Assembly (NCBI GenBank): GCA_012960415.1
Contig: DUBH01000037.1
Coordinates: 51,005-85,286 of the forward strand
DNA from: Henriciella sp.
Lineage (GTDB): Bacteria > Pseudomonadota > Alphaproteobacteria > Caulobacterales > Hyphomonadaceae
Length of the DNA: 34,282 bases
Direction of reading: 5' to 3'
Part shown: positions 21,756 through 25,048 of the stretch, piece by piece
Layout: each line of letters opens with the position of its first letter
Position numbering within the stretch: position 1 is the first letter of the stretch
The notes under the pieces: generated by a model
What the model saw: the letters and a program-made list of their open reading frames with translations, nothing else
What the model was told of the DNA's origin: nothing
The model's database searches: none
Position numbers and translations under genes: made by a program

Positions 21756-23153
21756 CTAACCAATAACGCCGGTAATCGCGGCGCGGGCGGCGAGGGTCGG
21801 GCTCATCAGATGGGTGCGTCCGCCCCGGCCCTGGCGGCCTTCAAAGTTGCGGTTCGAGGTCGAAGCGCAACGTTCGCCCGGCGCGAGGATGTCCGGATTC
21901 ATGCCGAGGCACATGGAGCAGCCCGGTTCGCGCCATTCAAAGCCAGCCTCTATGAAGATGTGGTCCAGGCCTTCCGCTTCGGCCTGTGCGCGCACAAGTC
22001 CGGATCCCGGAACGACCATGGCGCGGACGCCGTCGGCGACCTTCGACCCGGACGCGACGCGTGCGGCTTCCCGCAAATCTTCAATGCGCGAATTGGTGCA
22101 TGAGCCGATAAAGACGCGCTGTACCGGAGTCCCTGCAATCGGCGCGCCCGGAGCAAGGTCCATATAATGGAGTGCACGCTCAATAGCAGCTTTTCTCACC
22201 GGATCTGTAATAATGGCGGGGTCTGGCGTGTGGCCTGAGAGCGGAATCGCCTGCTCCGGGCTCGTGCCCCAGGTGACGGTTGGTTCGACATCTTCGCCGC
22301 GAATTTCGACAATGCGGTCCCACTGGGCGTCGTCATCGGAATACAGGGTTTCCCAATAGGACTTAGCGACATCCCACGCCCCTGCCTTCGGCGCGGCGGG
22401 CCTGCCCTTCATATAGGCGAATGTCGTGTCATCCGGCGCAATCAAACCGGCACGCGCGCCGCCCTCGATCGAGAGGTTGCAGAGCGTCATCCGCCCTTCC
22501 ATGGAAAGCGCGCGAACCGCTTCGCCGCGATACTCCATGACGTGGCCCGTGCCGCCAGCCGTGCCTATAATCGAAATGAGGTGAAGGGCGAGATCCTTGG
22601 CGGTGACGCCTTCTCTCAGCTGGCCGCTAACTTCAATGGCCATATTGCGCGACTTCTGTGTGCGGAGCGTTTGCGTCGCCAGGACGTGCTCGACCTCGGA
22701 TGTCCCGATGCCGTGGGCAAGCGCGCCGAAGGCGCCATGCGTCGAGGTGTGGCTGTCCCCGCAGACAATCGTCATGCCGGGCTGGGTACGTCCCTGCTCA
22801 GGACCGACCACGTGAACGATGCCGTTCCGGACATCGCCCATCGGGAAAAATTCGATGCCGTATTCGGCGACATTGCGCGACAGGGCAGACAACTGGTTGC
22901 GCGCGGCTTCATCGCGCACGCCTTCAAGACCTGCGGCCTGGTTTTCTGTCGGTGTGTTGTGATCTGCGACAGCGAGGGTGAGTTCGGGCCGGCGCACCTT
23001 GCGGCCGTTTGCTTTCAGGCCAGAGAAGGCCTGCGGCGTCGTCACCTCATGGATGAGGTGGAGGTCGATATAAATGAGCGCGTCGCCACTCGCGGCGTCG
23101 GTGTCCACGAGGTGGGCGTCCCAGATCTTGTCGTAAAGTGTCTTGCCCGGCAT
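21756..23153 (-). CDS. leuC: 3-isopropylmalate dehydratase large subunit
   Basis: LeuC is the catalytic [4Fe-4S] subunit of isopropylmalate isomerase, which converts 2- to 3-isopropylmalate together with LeuD. Three cluster cysteines are visible: C352 in GSCTNSR, and C412 and C415 in [27 protein letters not shown] near residue 131 is another family signature. The protein has 465 residues, normal for bacterial LeuC. I chose the ATG at 23153, with AGGAGG ten bases upstream; the longer frame to 23246 adds 31 unrelated residues. A leucine-containing short ORF and a 9-bp hairpin lie directly upstream, and a terminator directly downstream. Confidence 0.96.
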
Positions 23154-23154
23154 G

Positions 23155-23214
23155 TCAGAACGGCCTCCTGCTGCGCTGCAAAAGACCATGCAGCGCAGGC
23201 CCTGACAAGACCAT
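23155..23214 (-). CDS. Candidate leader peptide upstream of leuC, 19 aa
   Basis: An ATG at 23214 opens a 19-codon frame, [19 protein letters not shown], that ends in TGA one base before the leuC ATG. Four of 19 residues are leucine, including an adjacent pair at positions 11-12. The frame contains a perfect 9-bp inverted repeat (23171-23179 with 23190-23198), and its end covers the leuC AGGAGG. This layout could allow leucine-sensitive control or translational coupling. The ribosome-binding site of the leader is only an AAGGGG about 12 bases upstream, so translation is uncertain. Confidence 0.35.
23171..23198 (-). promoter_or_regulatory. Perfect hairpin immediately before the leuC ribosome-binding site
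   Basis: CTGCGCTGC and GCAGCGCAG form a 9-bp perfect stem with a 10-base loop. On the minus strand the 3' arm ends one base before AGGAGG (23169-23164), the leuC Shine-Dalgarno sequence. A slipped pairing of the upstream CCTGC with GCAGG would include the first bases of that site. Any regulatory role is inferred. Confidence 0.5.
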
Positions 23215-23244
23215 CCGCGGCGTCCACCCCTTGAAACAACAGGC

Positions 23245-23279
23245 AAAAGAAAAGGGCCAGCTCATCGAGCTGGCCCTTT
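23245..23279 (-). terminator. Intrinsic terminator after the repeat-protein gene
   Basis: AAAGGGCCAGCTC and GAGCTGGCCCTTT form a perfect 13-bp stem with a 3-base loop at 23251-23279. On the minus strand the T-rich run TTTTCTTTT follows. It lies 27 bp after the stop codon of the repeat-protein gene and upstream of leuC. Confidence 0.88.
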
Positions 23280-23305
23280 CCGGGTGTTTCTGGTTCAGGC
23301 TTGAC

Positions 23306-24706
23306 CTAGCAAGGGCAACCTGGGCCGACGTTCAGGACCACCAGAGAAGCGCGCTGCGTCTCATAACGGGTCGGTGCGACGACGGTCTCAACCTGACCGC
23401 GGACGCGGCGGTACTCGATTGGCTGGACGATACGACGCTCGACCGGCTGGATCACGTTACGCTGGGTCACCGCTTCGAAGTAGGATTCGGTGTACTCTTC
23501 GCGATATTCCTCGGTGACCTGCGGGATGTAGTTCACCTGGGTCTGAGGGATCGGCTCAGCTTCGACGCGGCCTGGAAGGTACTCTTCCTGATAGATCGTG
23601 TCGCGAACGATGGTTTCGGTCTGCGGACGAAGCACGCGGCGCTCGATTGGCTGGATCGTCGTCACGACAACCGGCTGGACCACATTGCGGGTCACCTGAT
23701 CGACATAGACGTCTTCAACTTCGAGGACGGTACGCTCAGTCACCTGCGGAATGATCTGCTCGGTGATCTGTGGTGCCTGCTCGGTTTCAACACGTACCGG
23801 AAGACGCTCTTCCTCGTAGCGGGTCGCAGCGGTGACGGTTTCGGTCGTACCGCGAAGGATACGGCGCTCAACCGGCTGGATCATCGTGCGGACGACTGGC
23901 TGGTAAACGTCGCGGCGGGTGACAGCATCGACATAGGTGTCGGTGTACTCATCGCGGGTGACTTCCGTCACGTCCTGAACAACGTTCTCGATGACCTGCG
24001 GGACTTCGTCCTGCTCGACACGAACCGGTGCGCGGACCGTTTCATAACGGGTGTCAGCGGTAACCGTTTCAGTGCGAGGACGCGTGATGCGGCGCTGGAC
24101 CGGGACGATCGTGGTGCGTTCGATCGGCTGGGTGATCTCACGGCGGGTCACGACGTCGTAATAGGTCTCGGTTGCTTCCTCGACATATTCTTCGGTCACG
24201 TCCGTGGTGATGTTCTCCTGGACAGCAGGAACTTCATCCTGCTCGACGCGGACTGGAAGGTATTCTTCTTCGTAGACTGTGTCTTCGGTAACTTCTTCAA
24301 CGCGTGGGCGAACAATGCGGCGCTCGATCGGCTGGATGAGCGTGCGCTCAACCGGCTGGACGATCTCGCGGCGGGTCACGGCGTCGAAATAGGTCGTGGT
24401 TTCCTCGAACTCGGTGTTCTCGGTCACGCGCTCTTCGACGTTCTCACAGCAGAGAACGCTGTCGATCGCCTGCTGCTCACCACCGAGGTAGCGAACATCA
24501 GCGCCGCCGGACGTGCCGCTTTGCTGGATGATCTCACGAACCTGAGCATCTGTGAGGACGCGTTCGTCGGTTGCGGAACCAGCTGAAGAGTAACGCTCTC
24601 CAACCGCTTCATTATCCCATGTGCCCGCTTCGCCATCGGCGTGGGCAGCGAGGGGGAGTGCAGCCAATGCAACGACACCCACCATCAGTTTCTTGCTAAG
24701 TTTCAT
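23306..24706 (-). CDS. Secreted tandem-repeat protein with 4.75 repeats of 76 residues
   Basis: I do not recognise a named family. The 466-residue protein starts with a signal peptide (about 1-23, cleavage near AHA). A linker of about 80 residues contains C86-C87. Five repeats follow: residues 106-181, 182-257, 258-333, 334-408 and a partial one at 409-466. Each begins like YxDxVTRR, then has QP, QP and RP/RG spaced eight residues apart (for example IVQPVERTLIQPIERRIVRP), then a PVRVEQDEVP-like stretch and an acidic end. The chain ends in GPGCPC. The mature part has no lysine and no histidine. The short Pro/Glu/Arg periodicity is reminiscent of eukaryotic alveolin repeats, a resemblance by eye only. 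A structural role in the periplasm or envelope is inferred. AAGGTGGA precedes the ATG at 24706. Confidence 0.85.
   Translation of the reverse strand: MKLSKKLMVGVVALAALPLAAHADGEAGTWDNEAVGERYSSAGSATDERVLTDAQVREIIQQSGTSGGADVRYLGGEQQAIDSVLCCENVEERVTENTEFEETTTYFDAVTRREIVQPVERTLIQPIERRIVRPRVEEVTEDTVYEEEYLPVRVEQDEVPAVQENITTDVTEEYVEEATETYYDVVTRREITQPIERTTIVPVQRRITRPRTETVTADTRYETVRAPVRVEQDEVPQVIENVVQDVTEVTRDEYTDTYVDAVTRRDVYQPVVRTMIQPVERRILRGTTETVTAATRYEEERLPVRVETEQAPQITEQIIPQVTERTVLEVEDVYVDQVTRNVVQPVVVTTIQPIERRVLRPQTETIVRDTIYQEEYLPGRVEAEPIPQTQVNYIPQVTEEYREEYTESYFEAVTQRNVIQPVERRIVQPIEYRRVRGQVETVVAPTRYETQRASLVVLNVGPGCPC
23309..24391 (-). repeat. Coding tandem repeats, 228-bp unit
   Basis: The units run on the minus strand as 24391-24164, 24163-23936, 23935-23708, 23707-23483 (one codon shorter) and a partial unit 23482-23309. 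They are in frame and clearly diverged at the protein level, so this is an old expansion rather than a fresh duplication. Confidence 0.85.
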
Positions 24707-24993
24707 TCCACCTTCCCCATTTCTGACCCCACCGGCCAACTAAAGGATATTCAAGTTGCCCGAATGCCCTCGGGACCGTTGTTGATACGCCACAAATTAT
24801 GGCGTCGCTCATTTCGTATACGAAACGGTAATCTTGAAACCAACTAGATTCCCTTCGCACGCGAGCAAGTCCTTGAAAAACACTGTCCCAGAAGGGGAAA
24901 TCGTGGCTTTCGCGGCCTGCTTGTCCACAGCTTTGCAAGCCATATGCCGTAGTGAAATGGGGGTATACGCGAAAAGTGTTGCAGCCAGAACAC
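24707..24993. promoter_or_regulatory. Long intergenic region with two adjacent palindromes
   Basis: About 340 bp separate the repeat-protein start from the rplS stop, the longest gene-free stretch in the window. It holds ACGCCA-N7-TGGCGT at 24787-24805 and the perfect 14-bp palindrome TTTCGTATACGAAA at 24812-24825, about 80-120 bp before the repeat gene. A CATAAT on the minus strand (24801-24796) could be a -10 element, with a poor -35 (TTCGTA) 17 bases upstream inside the second palindrome. The rest (24826-24993) shows no convincing ORF or RNA gene to me. Confidence 0.4.
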
Positions 24994-25021
24994 AAAAACC
25001 CCGCAACTTTCGTTGCGGGGT
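24994..25021 (-). terminator. Intrinsic terminator after rplS
   Basis: On the minus strand ACCCCGCAAC and GTTGCGGGGT form a 10-bp stem closed by a GAAA tetraloop, followed by five T residues. It lies 27 bp after the rplS stop codon and would end the trmD-rplS transcript. Confidence 0.88.
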
Positions 25022-25048
25022 CAAAAAATTACCAAATTTTAGGAAATT

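Follow-up and report, generated by a model that had tools for sequence, protein, structure and literature searches.

What does the gene between rplS and leuC on this contig encode, and is its product related to the alveolins, the cortical proteins of eukaryotes? The window analysed was a stretch of 34,282 nucleotides from Henriciella sp.; Henriciella is a genus within the Hyphomonadaceae (NCBI). A preliminary description of the window had placed here an independently controlled gene for a secreted protein, built of tandem repeats and recalling alveolins in its proline spacing. The gene is the following:

23306..24706, minus strand: coding sequence of the repeat protein (ATG at 24706, stop codon at 23308-23306 included, 466 aa)

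The reading frame given in that description (24706..23309, minus strand, 466 aa) was recovered exactly. When the gene was compared with nine homologues, dN/dS ranged from 0.03 to 0.24, and the changes were concentrated at the third positions of the minus-strand frame. The gene is coding on the minus strand, and purifying selection acts on it. It is present as a single copy in its own 3.5 Mb genome and is 99–100% identical to a gene on an H. algicola contig; H. marina carries the gene as well. A plus-strand open reading frame at 23138-24586 (482 aa) was rejected as a gene, as the substitutions fit minus-strand codons, whose third positions are its first positions. Across the gene, this antisense frame contained 0 to 5 stops, and it was free of stops in 5 of 23 sequences, our own included, so that it often remains open. 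Since changes at minus-strand third positions fall on antisense first positions, the antisense frame was judged to be a by-product of the codon use of the repeat gene.

Homologues were found across the Hyphomonadaceae, in 28 of 105 genomes and 4 of 10 genera: Henriciella (g1; 19 of 29 genomes), g3 (seven), g5 (one) and g8 (one). The order search (299 genomes) yielded 19 matches including our own, all within the Hyphomonadaceae. In the class, only our own genome was matched with the whole-protein profile (385 genomes), and our own genome plus two weak matches with the repeat profile (289 genomes). The phylum search (299 genomes) again gave our own genome and two weak matches. No convincing relative was found outside the Hyphomonadaceae in the sampled genomes of order, class and phylum. 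Possible distant relatives in G267, G425, G368 and G778 (E 0.004–0.03) were rejected; the frames in the latter three (L075, L085 and L084) were low-complexity, ProA-like and HemX-like, respectively, as named by eye. A mobile or phage origin was also rejected: of 17 pattern matches on viral contigs, none was a relative, and no relative was found on plasmids. The protein appears to belong to no known family. No literature on the family was recognised among the matches listed for Caulobacter articulins, Hyphomonadaceae or Henriciella proteins and epiplastins, which is weak evidence of absence.

rplS and leuC flank the gene in the window as well as in the two Henriciella loci that were mapped in full (L071 and L072). 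The rplS–leuC interval was short and empty in four genomes lacking the gene (G007, G010, G013 and G027; 214–429 bases between the matched parts). It was longer in four others lacking the gene, with other genes in G024, G028 and G032 and a length of about 1.1 kb in G008. Across related genomes (intervals L060–L067), it was thus either short and empty or occupied by other genes or by the repeat gene. In the three loci read from g3, g5 and g8, the gene lay elsewhere and had no neighbour in common. Ten of the 29 Henriciella genomes do not carry the gene, and the repeat protein is thus accessory and not part of a core envelope.

The protein alignment comprised 26 of the 28 family genes. L020 (rearranged) and L035 (which holds N) were excluded, and their cysteines were counted apart. 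Some aligned rows stop at the match border and miss the final residues, and the start of L032 is missing at a contig edge. Two features were located at the N-terminus:

24638..24706, minus strand: signal peptide (residues 1-23, MKLSKKLMVGVVALAALPLAAHA followed by DG; cleavage between AHA and DG, by eye)
24518..24550, minus strand: short helix in the N-terminal head (residues 53-63; AlphaFold2, pLDDT about 65)

By eye, all rows with an intact N-terminus (25 of 26) showed a basic residue close to the start and an uncharged stretch of 15–20 residues, which agrees with the earlier reading of the protein as secreted. A lipobox was not found, as there is no cysteine upstream of residue 86. Inspection of the neighbouring genes by eye revealed no anchor or secretion partner, and none was common across genera.

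The repeat domain was divided as follows:

24164..24391, minus strand: repeat unit 1 (residues 106-181, 76 residues)
23936..24163, minus strand: repeat unit 2 (residues 182-257, 76 residues)
23708..23935, minus strand: repeat unit 3 (residues 258-333, 76 residues)
23483..23707, minus strand: repeat unit 4 (residues 334-408, 75 residues; gap-free in 26 of 26 rows)
23309..23482, minus strand: partial unit 5 and C-terminal cap (residues 409-466, 58 residues)

The layout of four full 76-residue repeats and a partial fifth was confirmed, with unit 4 having 75 residues. Self-identity at an offset of 76 was 44% (residues 98–466; shuffle maximum 24% at any offset of 1–249, 1000 shuffles), and a proline–proline spacing of 8 occurred ten times (mean 1.9 and maximum 9 in 2000 random placements); the shuffles break up the repeats, and the ten proline pairs are not independent, because the units are copies of each other. 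The first and second prolines, eight residues apart, were invariant in all five units of the 26 homologues. At the third position, Pro was found in 9, 26, 7, 11 and 13 of 26 rows (units 1 to 5), that is, in every row for unit 2 only, while the other units mostly had Pro or Gly. Of the units of this protein, only the first and the fourth show the exact series QP-QP-RP that had been read in each repeat; the second reads QP-VP-RP, and RG replaces RP in the third and fifth. Prolines 12 residues apart did not occur in the repeat protein.

The strongest period of hydrophobic residues was 4.2 in 26 of 26 rows. As the 76-residue repeat limits the spectrum to fractions of 76, it should be noted that 4.2 is near 76/18. 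In the Henriciella protein, this period was reached by none of 500 shuffles, a figure that overstates the significance because shuffling also destroys the repeats. The direct evidence for the spacing is that hydrophobic residues were depleted at distance 2 (0.41) and in excess at distances 4 and 8 (1.23 and 1.38). A period of 4.2 matches neither a plain strand (2.0) nor a helix (3.6). It would fit a strand whose inward face alternates between hydrophobic and charged residues.

Comparing six distant rows of the 26 without gaps, the unit with the same index was the best match in 136 of 150 comparisons, including the matches of unit 4, which come easily because this unit is one residue shorter and therefore out of register. 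As units match by index across genera, the five-unit plan probably predates the divergence of these genera.

The repeats are enclosed by two cysteine motifs:

24446..24451, minus strand: invariant CC (residues 86-87; 26 of 26 rows, also L020 and L035)
23309..23317, minus strand: invariant CxC (residues 464-466; 26 of 26 rows, also L020 and L035)

CC before and CxC after the repeats were found in 28 of 28 homologues; in the 26 aligned rows, the stretch that they enclose is free of further cysteines. The distance from CC to CxC was 377 residues in 26 of 28 homologues, 378 in L034 and 301 in L020. From C86 to G461 (376 columns), there was not a single gap in 26 of 26 rows, at identities to the Henriciella protein of 53–100%. 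L020 (from genome G019) is a natural variant of 391 aa with four units, ordered 1-4-2-5 by best match. Its domain is shorter by exactly 76 residues, and both end units are kept. The loss and reordering of units in L020 mean that middle units can go or move, whereas the register and the end units remain. Extensions after the CxC varied by genus in L028–L034 (e.g. GY, APGY and STGY), and L031 had a longer extension with a fifth cysteine.

AlphaFold2 was run on the 26-row alignment and gave a mean pLDDT of 74, with 344 of 466 residues at 70–90. The model contained strands of 61, 54, 53 and 47 residues in units 1, 2, 4 and 5, and a strand split into 30 and 22 residues in unit 3. The pTM of the whole protein was 0.31, so that strand pairing over the whole chain is not trusted. 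A two-unit fragment (63 rows, i.e. 21 of the 26 homologues in three registers each) reached a pLDDT of 55 and a pTM of 0.27, with 68 of 164 residues below 50 and only two strands of 22 residues. Given the low pTM and the poor fold of the fragment, the long strands could be artefactual, or partners could be required for them to form. The repeat domain is predicted to be extended and beta-rich. A fully disordered chain, which the preliminary description had named as an outcome that would speak against it, was not predicted for the whole protein, although the two-unit fragment folds poorly.

Database searches yielded little. Foldseek found no match at E 0.001 in the PDB or among viral models (best 50 of 91 viral rows), which says little because the query model had a pTM of only 0.31. 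The top two PDB rows were the beta-solenoids CsgA and FapC (E 0.095 and 0.25, probability ≤0.02, TM 0.03) and were rejected; several PDB rows are proteins that we take to be beta-helical or solenoid. Curli CsgA and FapC are exported beta-rich repeat proteins. The repeat protein has export signal, predicted beta-richness and repetition in common with them, but no fold match. Among PDB sequences, nothing was found at E 10 with the single sequence or at E 1 with the profile. The Pfam domain WH_DRP was listed in 9 of 26 homologues, and only L034 passed (27.5 bits, cut-off 27, a stretch of 27 residues). This is the sole Pfam match over the cut-off in the family. WH_DRP is a helical plant domain, and the match was tentatively taken as spurious. 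DUF4537 (15.5 bits, cut-off 27), AceK_regulatory (14 of 26 homologues, best E 0.0058, 16.3 bits, cut-off 25) and the other Pfam matches below the cut-off were taken as chance or composition, and two PHROG rows (E 0.26 and 0.9) were rejected. A peptidoglycan-binding domain was absent from the Pfam matches. Apart from the marginal match of L034, there was thus no clear match to a characterised domain family, the other outcome that had been named as contrary to the first reading.

The likeness to alveolins holds as one of style, not of kinship. The alveolin profile IMCp (PF12314) had no match in our own genome even at E 10, and at E 1 it was absent from all 27 family members scanned (P0001, 25 rows and L020). 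As a control, it matched Caulobacter vibrioides and five of five Caulobacter-type articulins (two over the cut-off), a set from one genus of the same order (L039 and L080–L083). Acid-base dyads were not enriched in the Henriciella repeat protein (15 vs 17.8 in shuffles). Three homologues had 15 vs 15.3, 17 vs 13.3 (156 of 1000 shuffles had as many) and 22 vs 20.5, so that 4 of 26 rows were covered; the positive control L039 had 24 vs 11.9. When the whole family was compared with the five-row articulin profile in hhalign, only the signal peptide was aligned (probability 22.7), and the repeat alignment gave a probability of 0.1. The hydrophobic period was 2.0 in five of five Caulobacter-type articulins. 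A 12-residue repeat period was not found in the repeat protein, whose periods are 76 (chain), 8 (Pro) and 4.2 (hydrophobic). Kinship with the alveolins, as the first reading might suggest, was not supported.

The composition leads to a mixed result. Compared with the epiplastin criteria of Goodenough 2018 (V ~25%, I 9%, charged 35%), the repeat domain contained 17.3% V, 6.5% I and 32% charged residues. Of the residues that are low in epiplastins, G (0.8%), A (3.5%) and S (0.5%) were low, but T reached 14.0%. Lys was absent from the repeat domain, whereas passages of PMC6212826 put it at about 9% in epiplastins as a class. His was absent and Met made up 0.3% of residues 98–466.

Several traits are shared with alveolins and articulins, namely tandem V/P/charged, beta-forming repeats between cysteine caps; a subset of alveolins likewise carries cysteine motifs close to the ends. 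In the repeat family as in the alveolins, structure predictions depend on context. The similarity in design is clear. In the parts of the reports available, the alveolin repeat is given as 12 residues (PMC4303705) and as EKIVEVP (PMC12465100). Plasmodium IMC1a is reported there to have cysteine motifs at both ends (Al-Khattaf 2017, PMC5223771). The repeat family has this trait as well (CC and CxC in 28 of 28), but the IMC1a motifs hold three cysteines each (PMC5223771, in part). Sections of PMC12465100 (2025) describe AlphaFold models of alveolins as disordered on their own and as forming a twisted beta ribbon once a partner, be it another chain or another region, is present. According to the same sections, alveolins sit on the cytoplasmic face of a membrane, whereas the repeat family has an export signal. 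The plateins of Euplotes are likened here by description: excerpts of PMC4303705 give them articulin-like V/P repeats and signal peptides and place them inside alveoli. They differ in being eukaryotic and in having 12-residue repeats.

The preliminary description knew of no characterised bacterial protein with this layout. This needs to be qualified, as articulin-like Caulobacter proteins have been in print since 2014 and 2018 (PMC4303705 and PMC6212826); it stands insofar as the available parts of these reports neither localise nor characterise them. Al-Khattaf 2014 mentions such proteins (PMC4303705), and Goodenough 2018 counts 28 Caulobacter proteins annotated as articulins and gives acid-base dyads as a hallmark (PMC6212826), as far as these sources were available. 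The portion of PMC4448529 at hand does not treat bacterial articulins. In the five Caulobacter-type proteins (L039:991-2088, minus strand, and L080–L083), a signal peptide was seen by eye, and CC, CxC or CxxC follows the V/P domain. They share with the repeat family the signal peptide (five of five), a V/P/charged repeat domain and a CC, CxC or CxxC motif near an end. They differ in their Gly-rich tail and variable length, and all cysteines of their mature chain lie after the V/P domain. With signal peptides in five of five, these articulin-like proteins are probably exported, contrary to the submembranous place that had been raised as one possibility in 2018 (PMC6212826, in part).

We tentatively favour the reading that the gene encodes a Sec-exported, cysteine-capped, beta-rich rod or ribbon of fixed length, serving the envelope or surface as a disulphide-linked scaffold or spacer; we regard this as plausible, short of probable. 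The gene would give rise to a structural protein exported by Sec. After removal of the signal peptide, it would start with a head (about 60 residues, a single short helix) and continue with the five-unit domain. This domain, predicted to be rich in beta strand, would be closed by cysteines at both ends (CC and CxC). Given the exact unit register, its behaviour would be that of a rod or a twisted ribbon with a defined length, and the protein looks like a stiff building element or a measuring rod. The periplasm is an oxidising place, so that the end cysteines would most likely be disulphide-bonded there, or else outside the cell. We infer that these bonds would assemble either the two ends of one chain or several chains end to end, and that the protein would be located in the envelope or at the surface and act as its scaffold or spacer. 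A more far-reaching version is rather unlikely in our estimate, namely an envelope ruler in which the cysteine caps tie exported ribbons of set length to one another at their ends, giving a covalent fibre or mesh; its plan would be that of the protist alveolins and articulins but would have evolved independently of them.

Other readings account for part of these data. One of them does without a polymer: a monomeric spacer or tether in the periplasm would set the gap between two envelope layers by its fixed length and use CC and CxC for attachment or closure. The strictly kept CC–CxC distance (377 residues in 26 of 28) and the single-copy gene are in line with it, but the domain of one genome is shorter by a whole unit, presence is patchy, and neither a lipobox nor, among the Pfam matches, a peptidoglycan-binding domain was found; we consider it unlikely. 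It is unlikely, too, that the protein is a mostly unfolded, charged, Pro-rich bristle at the surface or in the periplasm, with AlphaFold2 strands arising only from the richness in V, I and T. The low pTM of both models, the residues of the fragment below a pLDDT of 50 (68 of 164) and the strong charge and proline content point in this direction. However, a disordered chain would not usually be expected to lack indels over 376 columns in 26 rows or to keep such strict hydrophobic spacing.

CC and CxC are plausible thiolate ligand pairs, and their invariance is what speaks for metal handling, with copper or zinc bound at the ends and the repeats as a spacer. We judge this improbable, as His is absent and Met is at 0.3% in residues 98–466, inspection of the neighbours by eye revealed no metal gene, and conservation spans the whole repeat register and not just the ends. 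Most improbable is true membership in the alveolin/articulin (epiplastin) class. The richness in V, I, E, R and P, the low content of G, A and S, the cysteine motifs at the termini, a feature also of Plasmodium IMC1a (PMC5223771, in part), and the AlphaFold ribbon reported for alveolins (PMC12465100, in part) would suit it. Against it stand the missing IMCp match, the dyad count (15 vs 17.8), T at 14% and K at 0%, the hydrophobic period of 4.2 instead of the 2.0 of bacterial articulins, and the lack of a profile match.

If the disulphide-linked scaffold is real, bacteria of this group make an exported scaffold that resembles the membrane-skeleton proteins of protists and is of separate origin. 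In 26 of 28 homologues, spread over four genera, its length is conserved down to the last residue. The folding and assembly of alveolins are called poorly understood in part of PMC12465100; the repeat family would then offer a single-gene system in marine bacteria, with named isolated strains, for studying how V/P/charged repeats fold and assemble.

The independent control proposed for the gene was also supported, by the presence of a terminator and by an upstream element that occurs once in the genome. The flanking elements are as follows:

23249..23281, minus strand: intrinsic terminator (15-pair stem and T run, 25 bases 3' of the stop codon)
24997..25022, minus strand: terminator-like stem 3' of rplS, separating rplS from the repeat gene
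24812..24825, no strand assigned: perfect palindrome TTTCGTATACGAAA of 14 bases, holding the -10-like TATACG (24820-24815, minus strand)
24838..24851, minus strand: conserved GAAT(C) and, 17 bases upstream of TATACG, the -35-like TTGGTT
24759..24774, minus strand: inverted repeat CCCGA...TCGGG in the leader, one copy in the window

The terminator scan found two such sites in 2 kb vs 1.8 in shuffles, and the stem of this terminator is long. The palindrome lies 106–119 bases upstream of the start codon and is present once in the 3.5 Mb genome, even when one mismatch is allowed. Upstream regions of 17 of the 19 Henriciella genes were aligned (the near-duplicates L002 and L005 were left out). TTTCGTATACGAAA was exact in nine of the 17 regions, and its core CGTATACG was found in 11, with variants in the other six. 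The exact core was absent from the five upstream rows of other genera in which it was sought. In 16 of 17 regions, the spacing between GAAT and TATACG (one region has TACACG instead) was constant; in the last, GAAT was one base nearer. By eye, TATACG and TTGGTT read like a -10/-35 pair of a presumed promoter, and the palindrome, in part or whole, may be an operator. The consensus promoter scan called no promoter upstream of the repeat gene. The folding of the whole 5' leader was no better than that of shuffles (z -1.24), and the two Rfam matches, far below the gathering score, covered the two terminators. CCCGA-N6-TCGGG was found in 10 of 17 Henriciella leaders (nine by pattern and L009 by alignment), with loops that differed.
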